Positions 2,536 to 31,813 of a DNA stretch of 32,812 nucleotides are shown piece after piece. This DNA comes from a virus. Made by a program: the position numbers and the translations under genes. Each line of letters starts with the position of its first letter. Within the stretch, counting starts at the first letter, position 1. The DNA lies in the IMG/VR virus record IMGVR_UViG_3300029259_000431, positions 1-32,812 of that record. One strand, 5' to 3'. A model generated the notes under the pieces. It was not told the DNA's origin. It was given only the letters and a program-made list of their open reading frames with translations, and ran no database searches.

Positions 2536-2545
2536 TATTTATAAC
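2536..2545 (+). promoter_or_regulatory. TATTTATAAC box before the gene at 2547
   Basis: Exact TATTTATAAC, ending one base before the ATG. It is one of seven such boxes at the head of gene blocks. If it works as a -10 type element the transcript would start at or next to the start codon, making this mRNA leaderless. Confidence 0.5.
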
Positions 2546-2546
2546 C

Positions 2547-2969
2547 ATGATAGATAAAGATAAATTATTTAGCCTATTTGGTGGAGACGAAGAAGAAGCT
2601 AAAGCTATTTTAGAGACACCAGATACATTTCTGGATAATGCTAGAGCAAAGTTAGGCATGTTTACTAAGTTAATATATAACCATGAAATATTCCACCAGA
2701 AGTTAAAAAAGTTTCTAAAGGAAGTTAAATCTGAGTATGATGTTGATAAAACAAAGGATGCATCTACATTTGCTGTATATAATAGGGCGTGGTCTTATAT
2801 TAAAGATATAAATCTTAAAGACCGCAGCCATTTTGATGCAATAGTCGAATATAAGTACAAACCCCTTATGGATTCTTTAGTAAGAGCTATCCAATATTTT
2901 GAATCAACCGAACAGTATGAAAGATGTGCCGTTTTATTGAAAATACAGAAATTAAAAAACAAGGTATAA
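2547..2969 (+). CDS. Hypothetical helical protein, 140 residues
   Basis: The product starts MIDKDKLFSLFGGDEEEAKA and is rich in charged residues and predicted helices throughout, with no signal peptide or membrane segment. I recognise no catalytic motif. The length and the position just before the small 60-residue gene and the HD-domain gene give no clear function. The start is placed at 2547 because it directly follows a TATTTATAAC box; the next in-frame ATG, at about residue 38, would discard a conserved-looking acidic N-terminus. Being headed by the box suggests it is expressed with the structural genes, perhaps as a minor virion or assembly factor, which is inference. Confidence 0.75.
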   Translation: MIDKDKLFSLFGGDEEEAKAILETPDTFLDNARAKLGMFTKLIYNHEIFHQKLKKFLKEVKSEYDVDKTKDASTFAVYNRAWSYIKDINLKDRSHFDAIVEYKYKPLMDSLVRAIQYFESTEQYERCAVLLKIQKLKNKV

Positions 2970-3048
2970 ATTACGTGGATATTAAAAAGTTCCTTCGTAG
3001 ATTTGAAATGCCGGTTGTGAAAATGTAAAGGAAAATAAAAAATAAGGC

Positions 3049-3081
3049 AATAATAAAGCAATAATAAAGCAATAATAAAGC
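3049..3081 (+). repeat. Tandem repeat, three copies of AATAATAAAGC
   Basis: Three perfect head-to-tail copies of the 11-base unit AATAATAAAGC (3049-3059, 3060-3070, 3071-3081), preceded and followed by partial matches. It is outside any gene I can support. It could be a protein-binding iteron or slippage product. Confidence 0.85.
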
Positions 3082-3099
3082 AAAAATAATAGTAAAATA

Positions 3100-3120
3100 G
3101 GGGAATAAATAATCAACCCC
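3100..3120 (+). terminator. Possible weak hairpin GGGG-13-CCCC
   Basis: GGGG at 3100-3103 can pair with CCCC at 3117-3120 across a 13-base A/T-rich loop, in otherwise A/T-rich DNA. The stem is only four pairs and no strong T-run follows (GTTATTAAAA), so a terminator role is weakly supported; it could equally be an operator. Confidence 0.2.
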
Positions 3121-3140
3121 GTTATTAAAATCGAGAAATT

Positions 3141-3323
3141 ATGAGAAATAAAAACTTATTTGAACAAAAGTTATTACAATTATCATCATCACTACAAGAA
3201 CTTAAACGTATGGTGGGTGATTCAAGGGAAACAGGTGCAAGCTTTAGATCTAGAATAGATGGAGCAGAGGGTATCATTGAATCCTTACAAGATATGGTTG
3301 AAATGGACAATTCACGTAGTTAA
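3141..3323 (+). CDS. Small hypothetical protein, 60 residues
   Basis: The frame starts after GAGAAATT and encodes a short, mainly helical protein: residues 1-25 form a likely coiled-coil-like helix (LFEQKLLQLSSSLQELKRM) and residues 38-56 a second helix (GAEGIIESLQDMVEMDN). It is acidic and soluble. No family is recognised. It lies 17 bases before the HD-domain gene and probably shares its transcript. An antisense frame of similar size exists over the same bases but has no supporting context. Confidence 0.65.
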   Translation: MRNKNLFEQKLLQLSSSLQELKRMVGDSRETGASFRSRIDGAEGIIESLQDMVEMDNSRS

Positions 3324-3340
3324 ATTTAAAAAAATAGGTT

Positions 3341-4117
3341 ATGACATTAACAGCAGAACAAATCCAATCTAATTGGGAAGAATTTTTAAATAGTATTGAG
3401 AGGCATATTACTGGAGAACGTAAACAGAAATTACTTGATTTTTATAGTAAATTTGAGGATAGAGTTATATTAATGCCTGCAGCTAACCATAAAAAATACC
3501 ATTCAGCATTTCCTGGTGGGTATGTAGATCATGTTAATCGTGTTGTAAAAGGTGCATTAGCAATGTCTGCTACATGGGAAGCATTTGGTTGTGATATGAC
3601 TACATTTACCCAGGAAGAATTGGTATTCTCAGCTATTAATCATGATTTAGGTAAAATGGGTTCAGTAGAACATGAAGCATATTTACCTCAGACAGATAAA
3701 TGGCGTAAGGAAAAATTGGAGGAGGATTATACTTTTAATAAAGCGTTACCTTTTGCATCTGTTCCTGATCGTGGTTTATTTCTACTTCAACAACATGATG
3801 TTAAATATACTTTTAATGAAATGTTAGCAATCCAGACACATGATGGGATTTATGACGTTGCAAATGAAAAGTATCTAAAGGGATTTATGCCCGAGACTAA
3901 ACCTCGTACTTCATTGCCTTTTATTCTCCATCAAGCAGACATGATGGCTGCGCGTATTGAATTTGAGATTGAATGGTTACCAAAGTTTTCTAAGGATAGC
4001 GTGGTACCCCCAAAGAAGGGTTTTACATTGACATCAAATCAAAAAGGTAATCCAAAACAAAAAGCACTTAATACAGTAGCTAGTGTAGGATTAAAAAACA
4101 TGTTAGATAGCTTATGA
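3341..4117 (+). CDS. HD-domain metal-dependent phosphohydrolase
   Basis: The 258-residue protein carries the HD superfamily metal-ligand pattern: His64 in GGYVDHVNRV, the His101-Asp102 pair in NHDLGKMG, His167 in QTHDG, and Asp200 in HQADMMAARIE. This order (H, HD, H, D) is that of HD phosphohydrolases acting on nucleotides or cyclic nucleotides with divalent metal. Substrate cannot be told from sequence; in phages such enzymes may adjust dNTP pools or degrade host signalling nucleotides, which is inference. The N-terminal 45 residues are helical and the last 40 are basic and low-complexity. It ends in an ATGA overlap with the next gene, so the two are probably translationally coupled. Confidence 0.85.
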   Translation: MTLTAEQIQSNWEEFLNSIERHITGERKQKLLDFYSKFEDRVILMPAANHKKYHSAFPGGYVDHVNRVVKGALAMSATWEAFGCDMTTFTQEELVFSAINHDLGKMGSVEHEAYLPQTDKWRKEKLEEDYTFNKALPFASVPDRGLFLLQQHDVKYTFNEMLAIQTHDGIYDVANEKYLKGFMPETKPRTSLPFILHQADMMAARIEFEIEWLPKFSKDSVVPPKKGFTLTSNQKGNPKQKALNTVASVGLKNMLDSL

Positions 4118-4389
4118 TATTAAATATAGCAATTATTATATTAGGAATTTTGGTCGTTATCTTAGGATACACGACCATAAACCTATTCAGGAAAAACGAA
4201 AAAATGCTAGAAATTATAATTAATCAAAATAGTTATATAACAGAATTTTCAAAACAACTAGAAATTACAGATTCTCGTCTACAAGAAATTGACTCTAAAG
4301 GTGTATTTAAAAGCGATGATGAAATAGGTTGGATTTTTGATCAAATAAAGGTATTACAAGAACCATTATCAAGATTTAAAATTCAATAA
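4114..4389 (+). CDS. Membrane-anchored coiled-coil protein, 91 residues
   Basis: One hydrophobic helix at about residues 3-23 (LNIAIIILGILVVILGYTTI) is followed by a basic Arg-Lys stop and a long charged helix to about residue 62, then a short C-terminal part containing KSDDEIGWIFDQIKVLQ. The topology suggests a single-pass inner-membrane protein with a cytoplasmic coiled coil. No enzyme motif is seen. It overlaps the HD gene by four bases, which suggests a functional link, and lies seven bases before the sigma gene. The family is not known to me by name. Confidence 0.7.
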   Translation: MILNIAIIILGILVVILGYTTINLFRKNEKMLEIIINQNSYITEFSKQLEITDSRLQEIDSKGVFKSDDEIGWIFDQIKVLQEPLSRFKIQ

Positions 4390-4396
4390 AAAAATT

Positions 4397-5119
4397 ATGG
4401 CACCAATAAAGAAAAAAAGAAGGAAGAAATCTAAAAATTACTTTACACACGACACTGAACTAGCTATTGTTAGGTATAATGGTCTTGATTCTATAGAAGA
4501 CTATAGCAAAAGAAGTGATATTTATGATAAAGAAATACATTTTGCATTCTTCAAACTCACCCAGAATATAATCCATACCTTTAAATTTTACCATACTGAG
4601 GTAGATAATTTAGAACACCTACAACATGAGATTATTGTGTTTCTACTATCAAAGATTCACTTATTCGATCCAACCAGGGGAGCAAAAGCTTATTCTTATT
4701 TTGGTACTATAGTTAAACGTTGGTTAATACTACACAATACAAAAAATTACGCTAAAAAAATTAAAAAAGTACCTGTTGATGTGTTAACTGGAGAAAACTC
4801 TACACACACTTATAGAATGGGTGATGAGATTATAAAATCTGATTTAGATAAATACATTGATATATTTGTAGACCATGTTACAGCAAATATTTTTGAATTA
4901 TTCCCTAAAAAAAATGATGCTCAAATTGCAGATGCTATTTTAGAGTTATTTCGCAAACGTGAAACACTTGAGGTTTTTAATAAAAAAGCACTATATATCT
5001 ACATTCGTGAAATTATAGACGTAAAAACACCTAAAATTACCAAAATAGCAGACAAACTACACTTAATATTTAAACAACAATATATATTTTATTTAGAGAA
5101 CGGATACGCTAATTTCTAA
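4397..5119 (+). CDS. gp55-like late sigma factor (probable)
   Basis: The 240-residue protein starts with a very basic tail (KKKRRKKSKN) and then shows a sigma region 2-like core: helices at about 47-67 (FFKLTQNIIHTFKFYHTE), HEIIVFLLSKIHLFDPTRGA at 77-96 and AYSYFGTIVKRWLI at 98-111. The FDPTRGAKAYSYF step resembles the FDPxxGxFxxY stretch of sigma-70 family region 2. A separate region 4 is not evident, as in T4 gp55, which directs host RNA polymerase to late promoters. It is somewhat longer than T4 gp55 (185 residues). It sits immediately before the baseplate genes, and its stop lies 16 bases before a TATTTATAAC box, the candidate target of this factor. The sigma call is fairly firm; the late role is inferred from context. 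Confidence 0.7.
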   Translation: MAPIKKKRRKKSKNYFTHDTELAIVRYNGLDSIEDYSKRSDIYDKEIHFAFFKLTQNIIHTFKFYHTEVDNLEHLQHEIIVFLLSKIHLFDPTRGAKAYSYFGTIVKRWLILHNTKNYAKKIKKVPVDVLTGENSTHTYRMGDEIIKSDLDKYIDIFVDHVTANIFELFPKKNDAQIADAILELFRKRETLEVFNKKALYIYIREIIDVKTPKITKIADKLHLIFKQQYIFYLENGYANF

Positions 5120-5135
5120 TTCCTTCCTATATCCA

Positions 5136-5145
5136 TATTTATAAC
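5136..5145 (+). promoter_or_regulatory. TATTTATAAC box before the gene at 5157
   Basis: Exact TATTTATAAC ending 11 bases before the ATG, at the head of the hub and spike block (5157-8348). The leader after it, AAAATAACATT, has no Shine-Dalgarno sequence. Confidence 0.55.
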
Positions 5146-5156
5146 AAAATAACATT

Positions 5157-5504
5157 ATGGGCGCATTAGACAGTGTTGTATTTGGTAGTAAAAAATTCTC
5201 CGATATATTAAGTGAGATATATGACAACCAAAAAACAAAACAACAACAAATAGGGGGATTAATATCAGAATTAAAACCATTGATTAAAGATATCGGTGAT
5301 GCTACTTTGATTGTTCCCCTTATAAAAGAATATATGGAAATTGGTGTTCGTAATGACGAGCAACTAATTAAAATGGCTACTATCATTCAACGTGTTTTAA
5401 ACACCTCAGTTAGTGATGATCCTTCAGGCATTACAGATGCAGAAAAAGACCAATTAATGGCCGAATTAGATAAACTTAATGAAAACTTTGAAGATAAAAA
5501 ATAA
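5157..5504 (+). CDS. Small helical protein at head of hub operon, 115 residues
   Basis: The product begins MGALDSVVFGSKKFSDILSE and is predicted almost entirely helical, with a Gln/Lys-rich stretch at 24-33 and an acidic C-terminal helix (AEKDQLMAELDKLNENFEDKK). No motif identifies its function. It is the first gene after a TATTTATAAC box and overlaps the spike gene by one base (TAATG), so it is made with the hub proteins and may be a chaperone or minor hub part; that is inference. I do not recognise the family. Confidence 0.7.
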   Translation: MGALDSVVFGSKKFSDILSEIYDNQKTKQQQIGGLISELKPLIKDIGDATLIVPLIKEYMEIGVRNDEQLIKMATIIQRVLNTSVSDDPSGITDAEKDQLMAELDKLNENFEDKK

Positions 5505-6805
5505 TGTTAAAACAAGGTTTATCATATTTAAATAATTCTGCAACTGCTAATATTGGCAATGAACAACTTTCTAAATCTATAGGTGGGGAATTTATTACTG
5601 CAAGGGTAATTGATATTTCATTAAATAGTAATTCACAAATATTTGACGAAACAGGAGGTTGGAGTGGTATTGGTTCTATTAAGTTTCAACAACTAGATAA
5701 AACTGTTAGTCCTAATAATAAAAACCAAGAAAACACTACATTTGCAAAACCAATCAATGGTCAGCTTAAAACTTTTCCATTAGTAAATGAAGTAGTTCTT
5801 ATTTTTAGAGGACCATCTACACAAAAGACCCAATCATCAAATACTAAAACTTATTACTACATAGGTACATTTGCACTTTGGAATAATCAACACGTTAATC
5901 CCTTCCCTGATGTATTTTTTGATAATACCTCAGTAACACCATCGATGAATAAAAGCAATTCAGACCTACAAGCGGGTAGTGTTGCTAAAACATCTAAAAA
6001 AACTACACAATTAAGTTTAAATGGTAATAGTGGAGGTGCATTTGTTGAAAAAGGAAATATACACCCTATTTTACCATATGCTGGTGACAACATATTTGAA
6101 GGACGATTTGGTAATAGTATTAGATTAGGTAGTACATCAAAAACTGGCGGTCTAAGTAACAACTGGTCCGAATCTGGAGATAGTGGTGAACCTATTACTA
6201 TACTTAAAAATGGACAACCCACTTTAGGTAGTTCAAAAGGATTTGAGCCAATTGTTGAAAATATAAATACCGATCCTACATCAGTATATTTAACTTCCAC
6301 TCAGAAAATACCAATTATAGTTTCTACCTCTACTCAAGGTGTAGGAGAATCTGCTACAGTACCTTTTTCAAATCTAGTAGAAGTTACCCCTAAATCCCCT
6401 ACATCATATAACGCCCCACAAGTAATACTTAATTCAAGTAGATTATTATTTAATTCTACAACAGATAGTATATTATTTTCTTCACAAAAATCAATTGTAG
6501 CTGAAGCTAGGGAAGATGTGGGTATAAAGTCATTAGGGGGAAATTTAACTCTAACTGCAGATAAAGGAACAGTTTCTTTAGGTGCTAAAAATGCAGATCA
6601 ACCCTTAGTAAGAGGAAATGATTTTGCTAGTGATTATTGGGTATTACTCAATGCAATGGAAAACTTATTATCCTCTTTAAAAAATGAAGCTTCAATACCA
6701 GGTGCTGCATCTGCTGCTGCTTTACTTTTAACTCAATTAAAAGAAATTAATGTTTCGGATTCATCAAAATTTAAATTTTTGTCTAATAAAGTAAAAACCA
6801 TTTAA
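5504..6805 (+). CDS. gp5-like baseplate hub / central spike protein
   Basis: The 433-residue product shows the architecture of a tail-tip spike. Residues about 30-150 hold alternating beta strands with ARVIDISL at 33-40, GSIKFQQLD, and PLVNEVVLIFRGPS, consistent with the OB-fold domain of T4 gp5 and VgrG proteins. Residues about 310-370 hold short repetitive strands (LLFNSTTDSILFSSQKSI, GIKSLGGNLTLTADKGTVSL) that fit a triple-stranded beta spike. The segment after them is a short helical tail. No lysozyme domain is present between the two, unlike T4 gp5. As a trimer it would pierce the outer membrane during tail contraction. It lies in the order expected for a hub gene, before gp25 and gp6. 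Confidence 0.7.
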   Translation: MLKQGLSYLNNSATANIGNEQLSKSIGGEFITARVIDISLNSNSQIFDETGGWSGIGSIKFQQLDKTVSPNNKNQENTTFAKPINGQLKTFPLVNEVVLIFRGPSTQKTQSSNTKTYYYIGTFALWNNQHVNPFPDVFFDNTSVTPSMNKSNSDLQAGSVAKTSKKTTQLSLNGNSGGAFVEKGNIHPILPYAGDNIFEGRFGNSIRLGSTSKTGGLSNNWSESGDSGEPITILKNGQPTLGSSKGFEPIVENINTDPTSVYLTSTQKIPIIVSTSTQGVGESATVPFSNLVEVTPKSPTSYNAPQVILNSSRLLFNSTTDSILFSSQKSIVAEAREDVGIKSLGGNLTLTADKGTVSLGAKNADQPLVRGNDFASDYWVLLNAMENLLSSLKNEASIPGAASAAALLLTQLKEINVSDSSKFKFLSNKVKTI

Positions 6806-6806
6806 G

Positions 6807-8348
6807 ATGACGGACAAAGAAAAACAATCATTAAAAGATAAAGGTTTAAAACAAGGGGAGGCTTTATTAATCCGACTAGCACAAGCTTTTTTAAATTCTA
6901 CTAAGGGTAAAGAACTCATAGCAAAAACAGAGGACATTCCTGTTGAAGAAGTTAAAGGAATTATAAACGATCCTGTTCAATTTAAAAAATATAAACCCGT
7001 AATAAAAGTTTATACAACTGAGGGTAGATTATATGATAAACAAACTACTAAACCAATATCTGGTGTTAAGGTAGAGCCTAGATTTACTCTATTTCCCCTA
7101 AAATACGAAACGAAAACTAGAACAATTAAAGTACCAGACCCTACTGGTGAAAAAAATAAATTAGGAATTGTTAATAAAATTGATCAAACAGAAACATACA
7201 AGGCATGGTCCGAAGATAACAATAAACCAGCATTTATACGAACAGATGATGAAGGAAGGTTTAAATTACAATTCGGTATTCCTGTTATACCTGCATTAAA
7301 TGATAAAATTTTAGGTTTAAAACCAAGGATATTTTACCTTGAGGAAGAAGGATATGTTCCTGCGTCCCAAAGTATAATAGATGGAAACAATGAAGTTGCT
7401 CAAGAATTACCCATATTTAGTTTACTTAACCTTGAAGCGGCGGCCAAAGAAGCAAAAAGAGTAGCAGAAAAAGAATTAATACAAAGTGCACTCCTAGTTA
7501 CTAAGTTTTTTGCTGATGTCGCTGACTCTGCTTTAAATGCTCTTAGAAACATGATATTGGGGTTTGCAAGTGTAGTACAAACCAAATTGTTTCCTTTAGC
7601 ATTCCAAATTTATATTTTATTTGGTATAGCCAAAGAAGAACAAGCACTACAAGGTGAGGCAACTTGTCCTGATAATGATGTACTAAAAGGTATAATTAAA
7701 AAAAGAAATTCTGTAGTAAGACAAATAAACAATATGTACTCTATTATTATAGCTAATACAGCACTAGCCGGTGTATTTTTATACCTGTCATTACAGTTAC
7801 AAGCCTTTAAAGGAATTATTTCCTCAATACCCATCCCACTATCTGTTCCACCTGGAGTAGGTGTTCCTTATTCTTTAGTAGCTAAATTAGAAGATATAAA
7901 AGAAATTTTAGAAAAACTTACTAATGTATCTAGTGACATTAAAAAAGCACTATTAATATCTTTAGTATTTTTAATTATATCTTTAGTTATAATTTTAAGG
8001 TATTTAAAGGCTATTGATGGGTTAATAAATAGTTGTGCCTCTGAATCTAGTAATAATGGAAATGGTAGTGGATTATCAATGACAGAAATTGATGCTGGTT
8101 TATTAGCATTACAAAAACAAGATGAAGAACAAGGTGAACCTATTGTTACTAACGCAAACGGTTTTTCCATGTCTGTAGAAGTAGTTGATAAGTCTAATGT
8201 AGACGAATATTTTAGAAGACAAGCAATTGCTAAAAACTCTCAAGGTATTATTATTTTAAGGGGGGAACCTTCATTTAGTGGTACAGACCAAATACTAATC
8301 GACGAATTAGTGTTTTATATCAAACAAAACAATTTAAAAGCAGATTAA
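6807..8348 (+). CDS. Hub-cluster protein with regulatory-like beta domain and hydrophobic helices
   Basis: The 513-residue protein has a helical N-terminus (1-65), a beta domain at about 68-205 with PISGVKVEPRF and RTDDEGRFKLQFGIP, which resembles carboxypeptidase-regulatory-like (Ig-like) domains, then an amphipathic helix at 207-245. Three hydrophobic helices follow at about 263-275, 312-331 and 380-400 (ALLISLVFLIISLVIILRYL). A C-terminal alpha/beta domain covers about 445-513 (IIILRGEPSFSGTDQILIDE). I do not know a named family for the whole. Position between the spike and gp25 suggests a hub component; hydrophobic helices are common in tape-measure proteins, so a gp29-like role is possible but unproven. 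Confidence 0.6.
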   Translation: MTDKEKQSLKDKGLKQGEALLIRLAQAFLNSTKGKELIAKTEDIPVEEVKGIINDPVQFKKYKPVIKVYTTEGRLYDKQTTKPISGVKVEPRFTLFPLKYETKTRTIKVPDPTGEKNKLGIVNKIDQTETYKAWSEDNNKPAFIRTDDEGRFKLQFGIPVIPALNDKILGLKPRIFYLEEEGYVPASQSIIDGNNEVAQELPIFSLLNLEAAAKEAKRVAEKELIQSALLVTKFFADVADSALNALRNMILGFASVVQTKLFPLAFQIYILFGIAKEEQALQGEATCPDNDVLKGIIKKRNSVVRQINNMYSIIIANTALAGVFLYLSLQLQAFKGIISSIPIPLSVPPGVGVPYSLVAKLEDIKEILEKLTNVSSDIKKALLISLVFLIISLVIILRYLKAIDGLINSCASESSNNGNGSGLSMTEIDAGLLALQKQDEEQGEPIVTNANGFSMSVEVVDKSNVDEYFRRQAIAKNSQGIIILRGEPSFSGTDQILIDELVFYIKQNNLKAD

Positions 8349-8353
8349 TTTAA

Positions 8354-8363
8354 TATTTATAAT
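8354..8363 (+). promoter_or_regulatory. TATTTATAAT box before the gene at 8367
   Basis: TATTTATAAT, a one-base variant of the shared box, ending three bases before the ATG. It heads the wedge block (8367-18496). The short distance implies an almost leaderless transcript. Confidence 0.5.
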
Positions 8364-8366
8364 TAT

Positions 8367-8765
8367 ATGAAACTAAGTCAATTAAAAACAATCGTTAAAG
8401 AAGCAGTAAAAGAAGCGATCCAAGAAGAAATGAAAGATATTCTTATGGAAGCAGTACGTTCTCCTAAACAACAAGTTTATGAAACAGCAGTACCTACGCC
8501 TCAATACACACAACCCGCACCTGGACCATTAAACCCAGTAGCTCAAACAGACCTACCAGAAACTGATAGGTTAAAATTAAGAGAAAATATGATGGGTGTT
8601 TTAAATGGTATGAGACCAGGGGCAAACGGAACTTTAACAGCAACGTCCTCAGATGTAGTCCCATTACAAATGACAGGTAATATGGATACAGCAAGCCCAA
8701 ATGGTACTTTACCAGCAGGAGAAGTAGATATGAGTCAAATAATGGGATTAATGAATAGTAAATAA
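8367..8765 (+). CDS. Small virion or assembly protein, 132 residues
   Basis: Residues 1-31 form one strong amphipathic helix (KLSQLKTIVKEAVKEAIQEE and on), followed by a Pro/Thr/Gln-rich flexible linker at 40-70 and a low-complexity C-terminal half ending DMSQIMGLMNSK. There is no catalytic motif or membrane segment. The pattern of a helical N-terminus with disordered tail is seen in small phage scaffold or linker proteins, but no family can be named. It is the first gene of the block carrying gp25 and gp6, six bases before gp25, and is directly preceded by a TATTTATAAT box. Confidence 0.7.
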   Translation: MKLSQLKTIVKEAVKEAIQEEMKDILMEAVRSPKQQVYETAVPTPQYTQPAPGPLNPVAQTDLPETDRLKLRENMMGVLNGMRPGANGTLTATSSDVVPLQMTGNMDTASPNGTLPAGEVDMSQIMGLMNSK

Positions 8766-8771
8766 TAAAAT

Positions 8772-9179
8772 ATGGCATTTGGAGCAATACAACAATTCCC
8801 AAACGACACTAGACCTCGAGTAGGTATAGGTGTTAATATACCTTTTAACGAAGGTGGGGTTTTTACTCCAAACTATACTACAGCTCAAGCAATTAAAAAT
8901 AACTTAATAAACTATTTTTTAACAAACCCTGGAGAAAGACCAGGTAACCCAACATTTGGTGGGGGGTTAAGAGCTTTTATTTTTGAACAAATATCAACAG
9001 AAAACATTGATTATTTAAGAGATGATGTAGCAACTAAGGTTAGAGAAAAGTTTCCTAATGTAGAAGTTGAAGAATTAGATGTATTACAATCACCTGATAC
9101 CAATACGGTAACAGTACAGTTATATTATAGAGTAGTAAATACTTCTATCACAGATGAACTAGTATTAAACTTCGCATAA
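8772..9179 (+). CDS. gp25: gp25-like baseplate wedge protein
   Basis: The 135-residue length and pattern match the gpW/gp25 family. The family core is visible as AIKNNLINYFLTNPGERP at 40-57, with the conserved GER at 54-56, then PTFGGGLRAFIFEQ at 60-73 and the later DDVATKVREKFPNVEVEELDV. In T4, gp25 sits in the baseplate wedge, contacts the first sheath ring and helps start sheath assembly. The next gene, gp6-like, overlaps it by one base (TAATG), the usual gp25-gp6 neighbourhood of contractile-tail phages. Identification is firm. Confidence 0.92.
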   Translation: MAFGAIQQFPNDTRPRVGIGVNIPFNEGGVFTPNYTTAQAIKNNLINYFLTNPGERPGNPTFGGGLRAFIFEQISTENIDYLRDDVATKVREKFPNVEVEELDVLQSPDTNTVTVQLYYRVVNTSITDELVLNFA

Positions 9180-11020: not shown

Positions 11021-11022
11021 TT

Positions 11023-12192: not shown

Positions 12193-12200
12193 GACATAAA

Positions 12201-18496: not shown

Positions 18497-18514
18497 ATAA
18501 AGATTATTTGGAGT
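18485..18514 (+). terminator. Bulged inverted repeat at the end of the giant gene
   Basis: ACTCC at 18485-18489 pairs with GGAGT at 18510-18514 and TCTTT at 18490-18494 pairs with AAAGA at 18499-18503 with a four-base loop; a six-base bulge lies on the 3' side. It overlaps the stop codon and precedes the next TATTTATAAC box. There is no T-run, so termination is only possible. Confidence 0.35.
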
Positions 18515-18535
18515 ATTAAAAACAATATATTATAT

Positions 18536-18545
18536 TATTTATAAC
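18536..18545 (+). promoter_or_regulatory. TATTTATAAC box before the gene at 18557
   Basis: Exact TATTTATAAC ending 11 bases before the ATG, the same distance as at 5157. The leader TAAACACAACG has no Shine-Dalgarno sequence. Confidence 0.55.
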
Positions 18546-18556
18546 TAAACACAACG

Positions 18557-23866: not shown

Positions 23867-23868
23867 CA

Positions 23869-23878
23869 TATTTATAAC
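23869..23878 (+). promoter_or_regulatory. TATTTATAAC box before the gene at 23897
   Basis: Exact TATTTATAAC, beginning three bases after the preceding stop codon and ending 18 bases before the ATG. It heads the three-gene block 23897-26597. Confidence 0.55.
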
Positions 23879-23896
23879 ATATAATAACAAACACAA

Positions 23897-24562
23897 ATGG
23901 GATATTTAAATAATTCAGTAATAACAGTTGATGCTATCTTAACAACCAAAGGTAGAGAATTGTTAGCAGCTAACGATGGTTCGTTTAGAATCACACAATT
24001 CGCTTTAGCGGATGACGAAATTGATTATACATTGTATAATCCAACTCATCCCTCTGGTTCACAGTTCTATGGGGAAGCTATAGATGGAATGCCTTTATTA
24101 GAAGCATTTCCTCTAGAATCACAAATAATGAAGTATAAATTAACTACATTACCAAGAGGTACATCAAAACTACCAGTATTAAATGTTGGTTACAGTGCAG
24201 TAACACTTCAACAAGGTGCTACGTTAGCAATTACACCACAAACATTAAATTACTTAGGTAATGATCAGGTATTTGAAACATCAGGATACAGTTTAACTGT
24301 TGCCGACGTTAGGTTATTAAATACATTTGAAGCAACTGGTATTAATACAACAGCAGCTTCTTCATCAAACCTTAATGCTACAACAACAATTGGAACAAAC
24401 GTTTCATCAACTATAACGGGTACACAATTCTCACTAAGAGCAACTACAGTAAACACATTGTTTGGTGCTAATAACTCACTAGTAAGTACTTTAACATTTA
24501 CAGGTTTAGATAGTGGAGCTAGAATTACTATTCCAATTACAATAACTAGATCAACAACATAA
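23897..24562 (+). CDS. Conserved tail-appendage structural protein, 221 residues
   Basis: The N-terminal 75 residues carry a distinctive run: GYLNNSVITVDAILTTKGRE, then FRITQFALADDEIDYTLYNP. The remainder is beta rich, with Thr/Ser repeats in the last 90 residues. No enzyme motif is visible. To my reading the N-terminal pattern is the kind that recurs in virion proteins of environmental T4-like phages, but I cannot name a Pfam family. Its block mates at 24573 and 25623 are similar in style, suggesting that the three build one appendage. Confidence 0.65.
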   Translation: MGYLNNSVITVDAILTTKGRELLAANDGSFRITQFALADDEIDYTLYNPTHPSGSQFYGEAIDGMPLLEAFPLESQIMKYKLTTLPRGTSKLPVLNVGYSAVTLQQGATLAITPQTLNYLGNDQVFETSGYSLTVADVRLLNTFEATGINTTAASSSNLNATTTIGTNVSSTITGTQFSLRATTVNTLFGANNSLVSTLTFTGLDSGARITIPITITRSTT

Positions 24563-24572
24563 TAAAAAACAC

Positions 24573-25616
24573 ATGGGATTTAAAAGATTAGAAGCAGATG
24601 ATTTTGTAGTAAGTGCACAAGCACAAACTTCAACCGCTTGGACAGGTAACTTACCAAATTTAACTACATTTTTCACACAATCTAGTCAAGTTGTAGGTGC
24701 ATCTGGTGAATATTATGCGACAGTATATAATGCTGATCCTGCAACCAACACATTAGCGGAAGCACAATTTGAAATTGCTTATGGTAATGAAAATGGGGGA
24801 GGAACATTTGATTATAACAATGCTGCGGTTCCTGGAGTATCTCCTTCATTAACCATATATGGTCAATATAGAACATTAGTTTTGGAAGATGAAACTGCAC
24901 AATTTTCATTTGGTGGTGTTAAACAAGGTTCAATTTATGCATTAAGTATAGAAAGGTCAAGATATAAACAATCTTTATTCCCAGGCTCATTAAACCTAAA
25001 ATTAACAGACCCATCTACTGGAGGTACAAATGCTATAGAGTTAACAGATAACTCTAATATGGTAAGTGTCCCTGAGTATTATGGTACTATGAGAGCGTAT
25101 CAAATAATTAGTGGTTCTAATGGTGTTGCTGCAACAGGAACAGGAGCCAATAATTCTAATGGGTATACTGATACAGCAGGGTCATATGGTTTATTTCTAC
25201 CAGATATTGGAACAATATTATTAAATGGTGCTGCATTAGATTTAACTACTACACAGGGAATTAGCTTAGACACAACAACAACAGCAAATACACCAGGAGC
25301 TAATCAATTAAAATTATATGAGGCTATTAAAAAGGGCCAATCTTTTGGATTAAATTCTGAGGAAACAATAACGTCTGATTTTGTATTTGTTAGAACAAGA
25401 AATTCCGAATTTAACTATTCAGAAAACCCATCTTATATTTCAGGATCAACCGGTGAAGTAATTTATAACTATTTTATTAATAACCCACAAACGTATATTA
25501 CGACAGTAGGTATGTACAACGATAGTAATGAATTATTAGCAGTTGCAAAATTATCAAAACCTTTAAATAAAGACTTTACAAAAGAATCTTTAATTAGAGT
25601 TAAACTAGATTTCTAA
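24573..25616 (+). CDS. Structural protein with C-terminal module shared with its neighbour, 347 residues
   Basis: A beta-rich protein starting MGFKRLEADDFVVSAQAQTS. Residues about 275-347 form a module with SEFNYSENPSYIS and ITTVGMYNDSNELLAVAKLS that aligns with the end of the next gene's product, implying a common ancestor or a shared interaction surface. The middle is Gly/Thr/Asn-rich. A SFGGVKQGSIYALSIERSRY segment near 115-135 is the least repetitive part. No catalytic motif or signal peptide is seen. It lies ten bases after the previous gene and six before the next. Probable virion protein. Confidence 0.65.
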   Translation: MGFKRLEADDFVVSAQAQTSTAWTGNLPNLTTFFTQSSQVVGASGEYYATVYNADPATNTLAEAQFEIAYGNENGGGTFDYNNAAVPGVSPSLTIYGQYRTLVLEDETAQFSFGGVKQGSIYALSIERSRYKQSLFPGSLNLKLTDPSTGGTNAIELTDNSNMVSVPEYYGTMRAYQIISGSNGVAATGTGANNSNGYTDTAGSYGLFLPDIGTILLNGAALDLTTTQGISLDTTTTANTPGANQLKLYEAIKKGQSFGLNSEETITSDFVFVRTRNSEFNYSENPSYISGSTGEVIYNYFINNPQTYITTVGMYNDSNELLAVAKLSKPLNKDFTKESLIRVKLDF

Positions 25617-25622
25617 AAATGA

Positions 25623-26597
25623 ATGGCTGCTTACAAAACATTAAATTCACAGGATATAATAATATCACCACTAGAGGTAACTAAGGGATTCTCATTTGAA
25701 GGGAGTGCCCTAATTACCTCTGATGTAGGTATCGATCGTTTTTTAGGAGCAAAAAATAGCCCCAACGTTTCAACCGGATACATAACAGAATATTCTCAAT
25801 CTGCTATATACAACTCTACACAACAACTGTACTATTCCAACTATATTTCTAGTAGTAATGGTGAGGTACAAAATGCAAATATACAATCCATCAACCCCGA
25901 TGGTACCGTAACAGGTCTAATAGCATCTAACGCATTTGAAAATTTTACCCAAACAGACCTAAACCCAGAAAAATACTGGCCTACAGGATCTGAAGAATAT
26001 ATAGGTGTAATGTCAATACCAAAATCATTATTTGGTGATTATATTCAACCTAATTCATTACTAATCACTACATTAAGCGGAAGCTATAAGGATGATGGTG
26101 AGGGTAGATTAATTAGAACAAATAATAATAAAACAATAGTAGTAGGTAATGTTACATACGCACAAGGTATGATTGTCTTTACTGGGGGTTCAAGAAAAGA
26201 AGGTACTAATAGAGATGCTTTATATGGAACGGCTAATTATGGCCAACCAGTATATGGTGGTAGACCAGTAGATAATAATGATGTAGAAAATTTTGTTGAA
26301 CAAACCGACATTAGCGTTTCTTTTTCATCGTCTTTTACTATTTATGAAACACAATATAAATGTACTATTGCAGAAAATGAGTTTAATTATACATTAAACC
26401 CATCTACAATTTCAAATACAAGTAATGACGGGGCAGTATACGAATATGTTTCCTCTTCATACTTTTCTCCATTTGTTACAACTGTAGGGTTATATAACAA
26501 CAATAATGAATTAGTAGCAGTTGGTAAGTTAGCTCAACCCCTTCCTACATCAAGAACTACTGATACAACAATTTTAATAAACATTGACAGACAATAA
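25623..26597 (+). CDS. Structural protein, 324 residues, paralogous C-terminus
   Basis: The N-terminus, AAYKTLNSQDIIISPLEVTK then GFSFEGSAL, differs from that of the previous gene, but residues about 250-324 (NEFNYTLNPSTIS, VTTVGLYNNNNELVAVGKLA) match its C-terminal module. The central part includes YIGVMSIPKSLFGDYIQPNS, then a glycine/tyrosine-rich stretch with YGTANYGQPVYGGRP. I chose ATG at 25623; another ATG at 25619 is in a different frame. Probable tail-appendage protein; the role of the module is unknown. Confidence 0.65.
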   Translation: MAAYKTLNSQDIIISPLEVTKGFSFEGSALITSDVGIDRFLGAKNSPNVSTGYITEYSQSAIYNSTQQLYYSNYISSSNGEVQNANIQSINPDGTVTGLIASNAFENFTQTDLNPEKYWPTGSEEYIGVMSIPKSLFGDYIQPNSLLITTLSGSYKDDGEGRLIRTNNNKTIVVGNVTYAQGMIVFTGGSRKEGTNRDALYGTANYGQPVYGGRPVDNNDVENFVEQTDISVSFSSSFTIYETQYKCTIAENEFNYTLNPSTISNTSNDGAVYEYVSSSYFSPFVTTVGLYNNNNELVAVGKLAQPLPTSRTTDTTILINIDRQ

Positions 26598-26606
26598 CCT
26601 TTTATA

Positions 26607-26616
26607 TATTTATAAC
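26607..26616 (+). promoter_or_regulatory. TATTTATAAC box before the collagen-like gene at 26638
   Basis: Exact TATTTATAAC ending 21 bases before the ATG, the longest distance of the seven. It starts ten bases after the stop of the previous block. Confidence 0.55.
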
Positions 26617-26637
26617 AAAACATAATACCAATTCACA

Positions 26638-28578
26638 ATGGCAAATACATTATCACTAACAGGCATAGTAACAAACCAAACAATTGAGGCATCTCAAGTT
26701 TCTCAATCAGTAGATGCATTTACAGGGGCAGAACCTTACGATATAACAATATCAGGATCCTTAGCATTACTGGGAACAGGTTCATTATCTACACAAGGTG
26801 TTGTAAAATTTGAAACTCTTGCTTCATCACCAAACCCAAATACCCTTAATGTATTAAACATTGATGCAAATGGAAACTTAACTTCAGGTGCACCAGGTAC
26901 AGGTACACAAGGTCAAAAAGGTAATATAGGTGCTCAAGGAATTAGAGGTTTAAATCCTACACTTGAAGCTGGAACCGCAACCGCTGTATGTTTTAATTTA
27001 GCACCAACAGTTATAACCGCAGGAACAGCAACAGCTAGAATATTTGACTTTTGCATACCAGTAGGTGCCCAAGGTACGCCTGGTATCTCTGTTCAAGGTG
27101 TAAGAGGTGCTCAAGGAATAAAAGGAGAAATAGGTGCTCAAGGAATAAAAGGAGAAATAGGTGCTCAAGGAATTAAAGGTATTCAAGGTATAAAAGGAAA
27201 TGTTGGTACTGGTGCTCAAGGTATAAAAGGTGCTCAAGGTATAAAAGGTATTCAAGGACTTACAGGTACCGGAGCAGCAGCAACAATAAACGTAAATAAC
27301 ACATCAACCCTAGCAGCAGGTGCTTCAGCAACAGTTACTAACATTGGGACATCTACAGCCGCATCATTAAATTTTGGAATACCTGCTGGTCAAAAAGGTG
27401 AAACAGGAGAAGGTGGTGGTCAAAAAGGTGAAAAAGGTGAAAGAGGTGCCCAAGGTATAAAAGGTGCTCAAGGTATAAAAGGTGCTCAAGGAATAAAAGG
27501 AGAAACAGGTCAAAAAGGTGCTCAAGGTATAAAAGGTGCTCAAGGAATAAAAGGTGCTCAAGGTATAAAAGGAAATGTTGGTACTGGTGCTCAAGGTATA
27601 AAAGGTGCTCAAGGTATAAAAGGTGCTCAAGGAATAAAAGGAGAAACAGGTCAAAAAGGTGCTCAAGGTATAAAAGGTGCTCAAGGAATAAAAGGTGCTC
27701 AAGGAATAAAAGGAGAAACAGGTCAAAAAGGTGTTCAAGGTATAAAAGGTGCTCAAGGTATAAAAGGTATTCAAGGACTTACAGGTACCGGAGCAGCAGC
27801 AACTCTAGCACCAGGTACAGCATCAACTCTAGCATTTGGCGTTACACCAACCGTTACCAACTCTGGAACTAGTGCTGCAGCAGTATTTGATTTTGGAATA
27901 CCTGCTGGTCAAAAAGGTGAAACAGGAGCAGGTGGTGGAGGAGCAGCAGCAGTAAACCCAGAAATAAGTAATACAATTAGATATATAGCATCAGCAGAAG
28001 CTTCAGGAAGAGAATGGCAAATGATGTCTACTGGAGATATATATAAAGATTTAACATATTCAAGATCAGCAGCAGTTGTAACAGTTACATCAACTGCCCA
28101 CGGTTTAACAAATGGTGATTTTATTGTAGTAAGAGGAGGAGTAGATACATATCTATATGTTGCTGTTTCAAACGTAAGTGCTAATAATTTTGATTATACA
28201 TCCGCATCATCAGGTACAGCAAACGGAACAGACGCCGCATACATACCAGCATTTGGAGTAAGTGTTTTTAGTAGTGTAACATCAACTGTTGTAATACCTT
28301 CAGCCGGAAATATTCAAATGATATCCATGGTAGTAGCAAGAGGATTAGATTATACTACTGATTTTATTTTAAATATGCCTGCTAACATAGAAAGTGGTGC
28401 GGGTTTAAATACAAGTGTAACTAATCAAAACCCACCAATGATTGCTTGTTTTAATTTATCAAATGGTGGTTTTATAACAGCAGTAACAGTTGAAGTAGAA
28501 ACAGGTTCAAATTTCTCTCGTTTTTCACTAGGTGGTTTACCTTCAGGTGTAAATAATTTAATGAGATTTCAATTTTAA
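26638..28578 (+). CDS. Collagen-like tail fibre protein, 646 residues
   Basis: Residues 1-80 form a non-repetitive head. Collagen-like Gly-X-Y tracts follow at about residues 84-105, 143-211 and 251-385, with a short one near 424-436, built mainly from GAQ and GIK triplets with GET, GQK and GEK. Between them lie three copies of a 41-residue beta module (26953-27075, 27277-27399, 27796-27918) ending IPAGQKG or IPVGAQG. The C-terminal 200 residues are a globular domain with VTSTAHGLTNGDFIVVRG, which resembles a small beta domain often found in phage fibre tips. Gly-X-Y tracts form trimeric triple helices, so this is probably an elongated trimeric fibre with receptor-binding tip. The host target is unknown. 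Confidence 0.8.
   Translation: MANTLSLTGIVTNQTIEASQVSQSVDAFTGAEPYDITISGSLALLGTGSLSTQGVVKFETLASSPNPNTLNVLNIDANGNLTSGAPGTGTQGQKGNIGAQGIRGLNPTLEAGTATAVCFNLAPTVITAGTATARIFDFCIPVGAQGTPGISVQGVRGAQGIKGEIGAQGIKGEIGAQGIKGIQGIKGNVGTGAQGIKGAQGIKGIQGLTGTGAAATINVNNTSTLAAGASATVTNIGTSTAASLNFGIPAGQKGETGEGGGQKGEKGERGAQGIKGAQGIKGAQGIKGETGQKGAQGIKGAQGIKGAQGIKGNVGTGAQGIKGAQGIKGAQGIKGETGQKGAQGIKGAQGIKGAQGIKGETGQKGVQGIKGAQGIKGIQGLTGTGAAATLAPGTASTLAFGVTPTVTNSGTSAAAVFDFGIPAGQKGETGAGGGGAAAVNPEISNTIRYIASAEASGREWQMMSTGDIYKDLTYSRSAAVVTVTSTAHGLTNGDFIVVRGGVDTYLYVAVSNVSANNFDYTSASSGTANGTDAAYIPAFGVSVFSSVTSTVVIPSAGNIQMISMVVARGLDYTTDFILNMPANIESGAGLNTSVTNQNPPMIACFNLSNGGFITAVTVEVETGSNFSRFSLGGLPSGVNNLMRFQF
27064..27792 (+). repeat. 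Collagen-coding 18-base repeats in the first fibre gene
   Basis: Two tracts (27064-27275 and 27388-27792, split by a 41-codon module) are built from the 18-base unit GGTGCTCAAGGTATAAAA and its synonymous form with GGAATAAAA, interrupted by units encoding GETGQKG and GNVGTG. Units are nearly identical at DNA level, pointing to recent expansion. Confidence 0.9.
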
Positions 28579-28607
28579 TTTAAAACCAATAAAACACATT
28601 TAAAACA

Positions 28608-29624
28608 ATGGCATACAAAAAACAACTTTTTATTGGAAAGATATCAAGTTTCACCCCACAATATAACAATGTAGTATTCATAAATGGTACTATACAATCG
28701 GGGCAATCAACTATAACAGGAATAACACCACAAAGTGGAGTCCAAGATGTGAGTCTATTAAGAGTAGGTATGTCGATACAATCTTTTGGTGGAGGGTATG
28801 CTTCAAATCCTACTATTCTTAGTATAGATAGTTCAACACAAATAACAGTAAACCAAACCGCAACAGCTAATGTAACAAATGTATTTGGAGCTTCTTTACC
28901 AGAAGGTAAATACTTTTTTAACTCAGCATCCCTTTTAGACCCACAACAAATAGTTACTGTAAATAGTATTACAGGTAGTTTAGATGGGAATTATAATGCA
29001 TCCCTATCTCCAGCGTATGCTGTTGTAGGACAAGCTTCAACTAGTCTTGGTGGTACACAAATTCTTGGTAAATTTTTTAATTACAAAATAACAGAAGTAA
29101 CATATAGAGATTTAGGCTCTGCAGAAATATCAGCATTCATAGAATGGGGAGGAGAAGGTACAGAAGCAGATAGTGGAAATGCTTTATTATCATCTAATAA
29201 TCAAACATTAGCTATTGGCGCAATGTCAGAAACAGCTTCTGCTGTAACAATATTTGACCCTAGTTATATTACAGGAACAACAGCAGGTTCGTCTGTAGCA
29301 GGTTACCAACAAACAGTTGTTGGGGTAATAGATCAGGCAATAACTTCTTCAGTAGGAACAGGTTTCCCATTTACAGGATCAGCAGAAATTACAGGTTCAT
29401 TAGCTGTAACAGGTAGCAATCTTGTTTTGTTAGACAGTGTTAGTGAATTTAAAGTAACAGAAACTACAGGAAATCTTGATTTAATAAAAATAAAGGGTAG
29501 TACTGGAGCCATTAATTTTAATGCTTATGCCGATGCCGCTACAAAACCAACCCCACTTGCCGGAGGAATTTATTTTACCGAAACAGCATTCTTTGTAGCT
29601 CTTGATGAACCTACAGAACCATAA
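28608..29624 (+). CDS. Probable fibre or fibre-associated structural protein, 338 residues
   Basis: A beta-rich product starting MAYKKQLFIGKISSFTPQYN. Its C-terminal third (FTGSAEITGSLAVTGSNLVL, then a KVTETTGNLDLIKIKGSTGA stretch) has the repeating T-G-S beta pattern of elongated fibre shafts, and the end is ETAFFVALDEPTEP. No enzyme motif is seen. It lies between two fibre-like genes 30 bases after the first. The leader is AAAACACATTTAAAACA with no Shine-Dalgarno sequence. Likely a fibre or adaptor, not firmly identified. Confidence 0.6.
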   Translation: MAYKKQLFIGKISSFTPQYNNVVFINGTIQSGQSTITGITPQSGVQDVSLLRVGMSIQSFGGGYASNPTILSIDSSTQITVNQTATANVTNVFGASLPEGKYFFNSASLLDPQQIVTVNSITGSLDGNYNASLSPAYAVVGQASTSLGGTQILGKFFNYKITEVTYRDLGSAEISAFIEWGGEGTEADSGNALLSSNNQTLAIGAMSETASAVTIFDPSYITGTTAGSSVAGYQQTVVGVIDQAITSSVGTGFPFTGSAEITGSLAVTGSNLVLLDSVSEFKVTETTGNLDLIKIKGSTGAINFNAYADAATKPTPLAGGIYFTETAFFVALDEPTEP

Positions 29625-29697
29625 AAAAATAATATTAAAAAATAGGTTGTATATGTATAATAAATTAACAATAATAAACTAAAAAAAACAAAAATCA

Positions 29698-31302
29698 ATG
29701 GCAACTTGGAAAAAAGTAATCGTATCCGGATCGTCAGCAGCACTTAGTGCACTGACATTAGATACAGCCTTACCCGTAGCCTCGGGTGGTACAGGAGCAG
29801 CAACACTTACAGATGGTGGTGTGCTTCTAGGTAGTGGAACCGGTGCAGTAACTGCTCTTGGTCAAGCTACAAACGGTCAATTAATAATCGGTTCTACCGG
29901 AGCAGATCCTGTATTAGCAACCCTTACTGGTAGCGCAAATATTACAGTAACAAATACAGCAGGAGCAATTACTATTTCTGCTTCAGGATTAGGTTCAGGT
30001 ACAGTACAAAATGTTACTGGTACTGGTAATGTAAATGGAATTACATTAACTGACGATGGAGATAGTGTAGATCCAACTCTAACATTAGGTGGTACATTAG
30101 CAAACGTTACAAATGCTCAATTATCTAACAGTTCAGTAACACTAGGAACTACCTCAGTAGCTTTAGGTGCAACAGCAGCTACAATTGCTGGTTTAACACT
30201 TACAGGTGCAGTCGTAACAGGTTCATTTAATGGAACATTTACAGGAACTACCGATTTACCAGACTTAGTATCAGGAGATGGTTTAACAGGTGGACCATAT
30301 GATGGTTCATTAACAAAAACTTTCGCAGTAGGAGCGGGTACAGGAATTACAGTAGCAGCGGATACAGTAGGTATTTCAGATGGAGGAGTTACAGCAACTC
30401 AATTAGCAACTTCAGTTGCAGGAGCAGGTTTATCAGGTGGTGCTGGAACAGCATTATCCGTAGGAGTAGATGATACTTCAATTGAAATTACTACTGATGC
30501 CTTAAATGTAAAAGCATTAGGTATTAGTAATGGTATGTTAGGTGGAAGTATTACAAATGCTAAATTATCAAACAGTAGCATAACTTTAGGAACTACAGCA
30601 GTAGCTTTAGGTGCAACAGCAGCTACAATTGCTGGTTTAACACTTACAGGTGCAGTCGTAACAGGTTCATTTTCAGGAGATGGTTCAAATTTAACAGGTG
30701 TAGGTGCATCCTTAGATACTACAGGTAATACGGGTGCAGGTACTATTAACTTAACAACCCAAGGTTTAGCAGTAACAGGTACAGGAGCAATTGCTACAGT
30801 AGCAGCAGCACAAGGTATTGCAATTTCAGTAGCAGATGCAGCAGCAGGAACCAAAGGTGTAGCTCAATTCTCCAATTCTAATTTTTCAGTAACAAATGGA
30901 GATGTAAGTTTAGCACAAGACGTAAGCATTGGTCGAGATTTAGTAGTTACTAGAAACTTAACAGTTGTAGGTACAGCATCATTTAACAATGAGACAAATT
31001 TAGATGTAGCAGATAGATTTATTAGAATGGCTTCTGGTTCAGAAGCTACTGGAGATGGTGGTATTGCAATTCAACAAACTGGACCTACAGATGCAGAAGC
31101 ATTTGGGTGGGATTCAAATATAGCTCGTTGGGGTGTAACAGGATCATTCGATGCAGCACAAAACTCTCTAGTACCAGATGCATTTTTCTCTTTAATAACA
31201 GACGGTGGGGCTTCTAACGACCCAACAGCAACACCAACTAAGTATACAAAGAACGGTAACATGTTTATTGGAGGAGATGATAACATCTGGATTTATTCAT
31301 AA
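29698..31302 (+). CDS. Beta-repeat tail fibre protein, 534 residues
   Basis: The N-terminus MATWKKVIVSGSSA resembles that of the gene at 31828 (MAVEWKEVVVSGSDA), suggesting a shared docking segment. Residues about 22-110 carry LPVASGGTGAATLTDGGVLL, a GGTGAAT signature frequent in phage fibre shafts. The middle is made of low-complexity beta repeats with two copies of ALGATAATIAGLTLTGAVVT (about residues 155-177 and 303-325), encoded by a 74-base perfect DNA repeat. The C-terminal 120 residues (NLDVADRFIRMASGSEATGD and on to GNMFIGGDDNIWIYS) are non-repetitive and may be the tip. Probable trimeric fibre. The 73-base gap before it has no TATTTATAAC box. Confidence 0.7.
   Translation: MATWKKVIVSGSSAALSALTLDTALPVASGGTGAATLTDGGVLLGSGTGAVTALGQATNGQLIIGSTGADPVLATLTGSANITVTNTAGAITISASGLGSGTVQNVTGTGNVNGITLTDDGDSVDPTLTLGGTLANVTNAQLSNSSVTLGTTSVALGATAATIAGLTLTGAVVTGSFNGTFTGTTDLPDLVSGDGLTGGPYDGSLTKTFAVGAGTGITVAADTVGISDGGVTATQLATSVAGAGLSGGAGTALSVGVDDTSIEITTDALNVKALGISNGMLGGSITNAKLSNSSITLGTTAVALGATAATIAGLTLTGAVVTGSFSGDGSNLTGVGASLDTTGNTGAGTINLTTQGLAVTGTGAIATVAAAQGIAISVADAAAGTKGVAQFSNSNFSVTNGDVSLAQDVSIGRDLVVTRNLTVVGTASFNNETNLDVADRFIRMASGSEATGDGGIAIQQTGPTDAEAFGWDSNIARWGVTGSFDAAQNSLVPDAFFSLITDGGASNDPTATPTKYTKNGNMFIGGDDNIWIYS
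30155..30228 (+). repeat. 74-base direct repeat, copy 1
   Basis: Bases 30155-30228 are identical to 30599-30672, in the same frame and 444 bases (148 codons) apart, inside the fibre gene at 29698. Sequence just outside the repeat diverges. Confidence 0.95.
30599..30672 (+). repeat. 74-base direct repeat, copy 2
   Basis: Second perfect copy of 30155-30228. Recombination between the copies would delete 148 codons of the shaft in frame. Confidence 0.95.
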
Positions 31303-31320
31303 TTTACAATTAAGTAAAAT

Positions 31321-31536
31321 ATGGGTTTTGAAAGTGGACATATAGAAAAAGGAATGGTAGATCTTAGACAAGGTCTACCAGCCTTATCTATAGAAGAAAT
31401 AAATTTTTTACTATATTTTATAGGTGAATCAAGTTTTAAAGGTAAAGATATGGAAAGGATTTATTCCCTGTCCCTAAAATTAAATAGTATATTACAATAT
31501 CAATTAAAAATAAATGAAAAATTATCAAATCAATAA
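31321..31536 (+). CDS. Small helical protein, 71 residues (sister of the next gene)
   Basis: The protein starts MGFESGHIEKGMVDLRQGLP and continues ALSIEEINFLLYFIGES, then a GKDMERIYSLSLKLNSIL helix. Residues about 21-58 align without gaps to residues about 9-46 of the next gene's product, sharing a Leu-Thr/Ser-x-x-Glu-Ile start, a Gly-x-Asp turn and a Leu-x-x-Lys-x-Asn-Ser end. It is soluble and helical. Its place between fibre genes suggests a fibre chaperone or adaptor, which is inference; no family is named. Confidence 0.65.
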   Translation: MGFESGHIEKGMVDLRQGLPALSIEEINFLLYFIGESSFKGKDMERIYSLSLKLNSILQYQLKINEKLSNQ

Positions 31537-31560
31537 TTAATTATTTAAAAAAAAGTTATT

Positions 31561-31776
31561 ATGGAAGCAGAGTTATATTCATTAGAAAACCTAACACTTA
31601 GAGAAATTAAAGCACTAAGAACAGGACTAAACCATATCCAGATTACGGGCATAGATGCTTTTTTTGTGGGTACATTACAAATTAAAGTTAATAGTCAAAT
31701 CGAAGAAATTGAAAACCATTTAAATTCCCCACAACCAAAATCTATACCAAAAACTTCGGTATTGAAAACTCCATAA
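31561..31776 (+). CDS. Small helical protein, 71 residues (sister of the previous gene)
   Basis: It begins MEAELYSLENLTLREIKALR and carries a GIDAFFVGTLQIKVNSQIEE helix; the last 18 residues are a Pro/Ser/Lys-rich tail absent from its sister. The likely duplication and tight spacing (24 bases) support both genes as real. It ends 27 bases before a TATTTATCAC box, so it closes the block headed at 26638. Function is unknown. Confidence 0.65.
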   Translation: MEAELYSLENLTLREIKALRTGLNHIQITGIDAFFVGTLQIKVNSQIEEIENHLNSPQPKSIPKTSVLKTP

Positions 31777-31803
31777 CCTTAATAACCTAAAGACAAACCC
31801 TCA

Positions 31804-31813
31804 TATTTATCAC
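31804..31813 (+). promoter_or_regulatory. TATTTATCAC box before the second collagen-like gene
   Basis: A one-base variant (TATTTATCAC) of the shared box, ending 14 bases before the ATG at 31828. It has the same placement between gene blocks as the exact copies, but the mismatch lowers confidence. Confidence 0.4.

Follow-up and report, generated by a model that had tools for sequence, protein, structure and literature searches.

A short box, ATATTTATAA followed by C or T, recurs at the heads of gene blocks in the viral contig IMGVR_UViG_3300029259_000431 and, judging from comparative sequence analysis, is almost certainly the late-gene switch of a group of Flavobacteriales phages. The window analyzed here is the entire contig (32,812 bases), and its genes are designated by the positions at which they start. 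We consider it likely that the box is a late promoter of the T4 superfamily, consisting of a single -10-like element (ATATTTATAA[T/C]nAAA) with no -35 element, and that it is read by the sigma-like product of open reading frame (ORF) 4397-5119 acting on the host core polymerase. The box precedes virion genes, and another promoter precedes replication-class genes, across the whole genomes of relatives, including the cultured Flavobacterium phage immuto.

The gp25- and gp6-like baseplate genes in the window place the phage in the T4 superfamily. Its best annotated relatives by gp6 are the immuto isolates (43% identity), and close gp6 relatives are also found in contigs binned as Flavobacteriaceae and Flavobacteriales metagenome-assembled genomes (MAGs). 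The host is thus probably a member of the Flavobacteriales, although MAG binning is weak evidence. The phage group is large and mostly uncultured, and hundreds of contigs carry the sigma-like gene.

Position, sequence and conservation of the box

A first-pass annotation of this DNA had described seven boxes at the heads of tightly packed gene blocks, and all seven are real and spaced as described, five being exact copies of TATTTATAAC and two being variants (Table 1). All seven are intergenic and in the sense orientation, as had been claimed, and no exact copy of TATTTATAAC lies inside a gene of the window or on its minus strand. The earlier list did overlook a degenerate eighth box at 29652, and the blocks are mostly, rather than uniformly, tightly packed, since the 2547-5119 block holds a 171-base gap before gene 3141. 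That gap (2970-3140), in the block whose last gene is the sigma-like one, has GCAATAATAAA repeated in tandem about four times and lacks a box.

The signal in the window is the position of the copies and not their total number. The 914 bases of intergenic DNA contain five exact copies of TATTTATAAC, and seven with at most one mismatch, compared to 0.02 and 0.49 in shuffled intergenic DNA; the minus strand of these 914 bases has no box with at most one mismatch. Over the whole window the 11 copies with at most one mismatch, all on the plus strand, do not exceed the chance expectation of 13.8. One TATTTATAAT copy, at 2307, lies within an ORF and is without conserved flanks.

Enrichment was also found in related phages. 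Across 58 non-redundant related loci, exact TATTTATAAC occurs on the plus strand 47 times in 32 kb of intergenic DNA versus 9 times in 892 kb of coding DNA, and so is not equally common inside genes, the outcome that the first-pass annotation had named as fatal to its proposal. Motif enrichment, which it had suggested as a check, was analyzed by an unsupervised count of 8-mers upstream of genes against coding sequence, and this returned the same word first over 1,011 genes of related contigs: the top three 8-mers (ATATTTAT, TATTTATA and ATTTATAA) precede 154-160 of these genes versus 3-4 expected. The top 8-mer in the 76-160 kb half of immuto, which carries the virion genes, is again TATTTATA (16 versus 0.06 expected), and the same search of the other half does not give it as the top word. 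As a positive control, the method returned TATAAATA from the T4 late region.

A position weight matrix (PWM) was fitted to the upstream regions of related loci and used to score the boxes of the window. The fit yielded 154 sites in 990 upstream regions, not all independent because many are orthologous, with the consensus [CA]ATATTTATAA[T 65%, C 32%]nAAA and 10 bases that are 97-100% invariant in the logo. The two boxes first described as one-base variants differ in this light: the copy at 31804 has a substitution at an A that is invariant elsewhere, and the copy at 8354 is hardly a variant, given the mixture of T and C at the tenth base. A logo from 95 sites in six whole genomes gave the same box, with an A directly before it as the only upstream signal and under 0.2 bit throughout the interval -34 to -2, so that a -35 element is absent from these sites. 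The base preceding the core follows the sigma clade, being A in window-type loci and C in immuto-type loci. Some boxes of immuto (NC_055915), at 120597, 131296 and 145346, extend to a palindrome, TATTTATAAATA, which also contains the T4 octamer TATAAATA.

The box is also conserved upstream of orthologous genes, as judged by locating the orthologues of each window gene and inspecting the 72 nucleotides (nt) upstream. An exact box was found before 93 of the 118 orthologues of gene 5157 (117 with at most one mismatch) and before 85 of the 89 orthologues of gene 8367 (88 with at most one mismatch). Of the 98 orthologues of gene 2547, 22 are preceded by exact TATTTATAA and 47 by a sequence within one mismatch of ATATTTATAA; for gene 18557 the counts are 9 exact and 12 with at most one mismatch among 22, and this box is kept in the relatives G017, G008 and G016 at 42-55% protein identity. 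Seven of the nine orthologues of gene 23897 have an exact box, the orthologue in immuto, gp107, likewise has a box upstream, and the box before gene 26638 is conserved in the longer relatives G017, G009 and G008. The weaker sites of the window also have counterparts: the site orthologous to 31804 is consensus in G017 and has the same A-to-C change in G016, and that orthologous to 29652 carries a better box, CATATTTATAAA, in G016 and G017. Ten block-interior genes (3341, 4114, 4397, 5504, 6807, 8772, 9179, 11023, 12201 and 12716; 25-118 orthologues each) showed no exact copies and at most three near copies each. The gap between box and ATG varies from 1 to more than 20 nt, even among orthologues. 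It is bimodal in two families, with modes at about 3 and 13 nt (gene 8367) and at about 8-12 and 18-20 nt (gene 5157), and the difference between the two modes is near one helical turn.

The reading of the box as a promoter is supported by its placement over 1.85 Mb, in which 249 of the 279 copies of ATATTTATAA[CT] lie no more than 45 nt upstream of a same-strand start, with 12 others inside ORFs and 18 elsewhere. The neighbour upstream of these 249 copies is on the same strand in 234 cases and divergent in 10, and the remaining 5 are at contig edges. The 10 boxes with a divergent neighbour cannot be processing sites in that neighbour's transcript. Divergent box pairs in G002, G003 and G004 raised the idea of bidirectional promoters, which was rejected: in G002 and G004 the minus copy is the conserved coding end (...TSYK-stop) of the upstream gene.

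Gene classes and a candidate sigma factor

In G001, G002, G004, G005, G006 and immuto, the boxes precede the portal gene, the gene after it, and the sheath, tube, tape measure and other genes. A second, host-like class of promoter precedes replication-class genes (DUF932, primase, ssb and DNA polymerase); its consensus is TTGG-N15-TTCGTATATT and its logo TTGG-N15-TTCGTATATTnA, and it was found in the window, at 70-98, and genome-wide in G001, G002, G006 and immuto. Upstream of DUF932 orthologues, TTCGTA is present in 27 of 35 cases and the exact late box in none of the 35. A hairpin often lies between the halves of the second promoter, for example the inverted repeat GGCTCCC...GGGAGCC.

The labelled genes divide between the two promoters with no exceptions: 29 virion genes have the late box and none the early-type promoter, whereas the replication-class genes number 0 and 8, respectively (Fisher P = 3e-8, kinship ignored). 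By gene family, 11 virion families with the late box compare to 4 replication-class families with the other promoter. PhoH was excluded from the count, as it sits among head genes and carries either box in different phages. The term "late", as used here, is drawn from gene class, and on that basis the earlier assignment of the boxes to a late promoter family agrees with the division.

ORF 4397-5119 probably reads the box and is probably a distant relative of the late sigma factor of T4, as suggested by several kinds of sequence and fold comparison. The ORF and 29 of the 40 members of its family alignment give weak matches to the Pfam model Sigma70_r2, and T4 gp55 does no better (E value of 0.026 for the ORF and 0.087 for gp55). 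The sole match to this model in G002, G003, G004 and G006 is the counterpart of this ORF, just as the sole match in T4, with a similar score, is gp55. The model has no match in G001, G005 and immuto, where the orthologues of the ORF are clear by direct comparison, and the gene is conserved with the same neighbours in relatives. Profile alignment with seven gp55 proteins (database records L165-L171) gave P values of 0.0003-0.002, at a probability of only 15-39%; the aligned stretch of about 100 residues is colinear, starting at the N-terminal Y-F/V motif and running through region 2.

Structure prediction points in the same direction. An AlphaFold model from a 93-sequence alignment has a mean pLDDT of 81 and a pTM of 0.48 (an earlier model from 40 near relatives was poor, with a pLDDT of 63), and its leading fold matches in the PDB are nearly all sigma subunits. 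In a viral fold library the best match (E value of 4e-6) is unnamed and is followed by named late and ECF-type sigma factors. The C-terminal helical part of the protein, which is longer than in gp55, may be an equivalent of region 4. Sequence-profile searches of the PDB with the ORF found no sigma factor, PHROGs returned only a family of no known function, and scanning with the sigma homologue of Mel-JY01 gave no match. In two divergent sigma-like homologues (L133:4332-5216 and L138:5349-6260), region 2 is interrupted by more than 50 inserted residues, which separate the FDPTRG and KAYSYF segments.

Table 1. Putative late boxes, candidate sigma gene and second-class promoter in the window
Feature	Position	Strand	Sequence	Gap to gene (nt)	Gene	PWM score	Remarks
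Second-class promoter	70..98	+	TTGG (70-73), TTCGTATCTT (89-98)		139 (DUF932)		fits logo
Late box	2536..2545	+	TATTTATAAC	1	2547	12.4	exact
Sigma-70-family-like protein	4397..5119	+					candidate box reader; 240 amino acids; probable remote relative of T4 gp55
Late box	5136..5145	+	TATTTATAAC	11	5157	21.1	exact; window maximum; directly behind sigma-like gene
Late box	8354..8363	+	TATTTATAAT	3	8367	12.7	block includes gp25 and gp6 baseplate genes
Late box	18536..18545	+	TATTTATAAC	11	18557	10.7	exact
Late box	23869..23878	+	TATTTATAAC	18	23897	14.5	exact
Late box	26607..26616	+	TATTTATAAC	21	26638 (collagen-like protein)	15.8	exact
Degenerate eighth box	29652..29661	+	TATGTATAAT	36	29698	11.0
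Variant late box	31804..31813	+	TATTTATCAC	14	31828	10.0

Two probable fibre genes of the window (26638-28578 and 31828-32812), each with a late box at its head, encode collagen-like GAQGIKG repeats. An ORF for an FkbM-type methyltransferase (1419-2030) contains a repeated peptide, MKKYLNNIPRKE (residues 1-12 and about 42-53).

Relation to T4 late transcription and competing explanations

The late promoter of T4 is TATAAATA, which spans -13 to -6 and functions with the sigma factor gp55, the co-activator gp33 and the clamp gp45 (PMC2988020, PMC1524935). The system described here resembles it in having one short AT-rich element with no -35, an A/T-rich stretch just downstream and a position before virion genes, along with a single sigma-like protein encoded by the phage, the region-2 profile of which can be aligned with that of gp55. 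It differs in the box, since the consensus here is ATATTTATAA[TC] rather than TATAAATA (in the same direction, TATTTATAA[CT] matches the T4 box at 6 of 8 positions, and the T4 octamer read on the opposite strand is exactly TATTTATA), in the apparent extra C-terminal domain of the sigma candidate and in the very short leaders that are predicted. At the sensitivity of Pfam models, which diverged proteins could escape, gp33 (PF16805) was above cut-off in T4 only, with none in immuto and one sub-threshold match in G005, and gp45 (PF02916) was found in T4 only and in none of the seven others, including the complete immuto genome. A bacterial beta clamp was likewise not detected in immuto or the relatives tested, with the same reservation about diverged clamps. 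The box is best read as functioning like the T4 late promoter and filed as a variant, new for this phage group: the architecture and gene class agree with T4, but the consensus does not, and two of the three proteins that act with the T4 promoter went undetected at this sensitivity. That box and sigma can change in concert has a precedent in Aeromonas phage Aeh1, which has the shifted late promoter CTAAATA and a strongly diverged gp55 (PMC1524935). The Aeh1 box differs from that of T4 in the first positions only, whereas the present box has TT for the central AA and is longer, reading ATATTTATAA. Copies of TATAAATA in PAU and Mel-JY01 had hinted at a change away from the T4 motif, an idea that was dropped because an unbiased search does not give TATAAATA as the main word of those phages.

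Several observations weigh against a T4-type promoter read by this protein. With T4 spacing, gaps of 1-2 nt would leave the ATG level with the predicted transcription start or ahead of it, the latter for gene 2547 with its gap of 1 nt; some gene starts may be misassigned, or initiation may occur nearer the box. The Sigma70_r2 score of ORF 4397 is under the Pfam cut-off (as is that of T4 gp55), and every PDB fold match has an E value of at least 0.1. The apparent C-terminal domain of the candidate could read a -35 element, yet none is conserved. The agreement between box and sigma clade is equally expected from shared ancestry, and in G005, the most divergent relative examined (sigma 45% identical over the best segment), boxes are weaker and their association with gene starts is looser.

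Because the identification of ORF 4397 as a sigma factor is built on weak individual scores, with recognition of the box a further step, and because the Pfam model misses the orthologues in G001, G005 and immuto, the late promoter could instead be read by some other factor, whether a phage protein so far unrecognised or one of the host's alternative sigma factors, while ORF 4397 does something else. We regard this as unlikely, since no other sigma-like gene was found in four relatives, the ORF keeps its neighbours, and its fold matches are overwhelmingly to sigma factors, including phage late sigmas. There is appreciably less to be said for the box as a host sigma-A promoter that serves strong phage genes with no need for a phage sigma. 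The flavobacterial sigma-A promoter has a -7 element, TAnnTTTG, and a -33 TTTG (PMC9723704, PMC6847099). That promoter and the box are both AT-rich in the -10 region, the hosts are probably Flavobacteriales, and TATTTATA retains the TA and part of the TTTG (4 of 6 fixed positions). However, an invariant TATAA stands where the diagnostic TTTG would be, the logos show no -33 element, and the promoter class that does resemble sigma-A exists separately, before other genes. These differences, and the finding that no word is more enriched than the box in these phages, agree with its original description as phage-specific. Least probable is an RNA element, either a processing site or a translation enhancer, between genes of longer transcripts: the box is sense-oriented, AU-rich and at gene junctions, and the probable host phylum lacks Shine-Dalgarno sequences and uses A-rich upstream sequence to aid initiation (PMC6847099), but the gap to the ATG is variable even among orthologues, ten boxes have divergent neighbours, and the box is missing at nearly all within-block junctions and confined to one gene class.

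Proposed mechanism and significance

In the proposed T4-type mechanism, the phage sigma-like protein would join the host core RNA polymerase, bind and melt the box, and direct transcription to begin about 3-7 nt past it. The leaders of late mRNAs would then be very short, with about 0-18 nt predicted for the window from T4 spacing, and earlier genes would be driven by the host-like TTGG-N15-TTCGTATATT promoter. If T4 spacing holds, the mRNA of gene 8367 is predicted to be leaderless or nearly so. Most mRNAs of flavobacterial hosts have a leader (PMC6847099, PMC9723704).

No description of this box, or of a Flavobacterium phage late promoter, was found in the literature searched, in keeping with the first-pass suggestion that the family is possibly undescribed. 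To our knowledge, work on T4-type late transcription has been almost confined to Straboviridae and cyanophages, and coupling to the sliding clamp is its hallmark. A bolder proposal, which we advance tentatively and with more doubt than confidence, is that the late switch of the T4 lineage operates here without gp33 and gp45, such that a two-domain sigma alone directs the host polymerase to the single TATTTATAA box, uncoupled from the replication clamp, with many late mRNAs lacking a leader although such mRNAs are rare in these hosts. The system described here extends over a large group of phages, with a changed box, a probable diverged sigma factor, no clamp or gp33 detected and a clearly separate early-type promoter. 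The box should allow late operons and expression class to be predicted from metagenomic contigs of Flavobacteriales phages, and the cultured phage immuto makes the mechanism testable.

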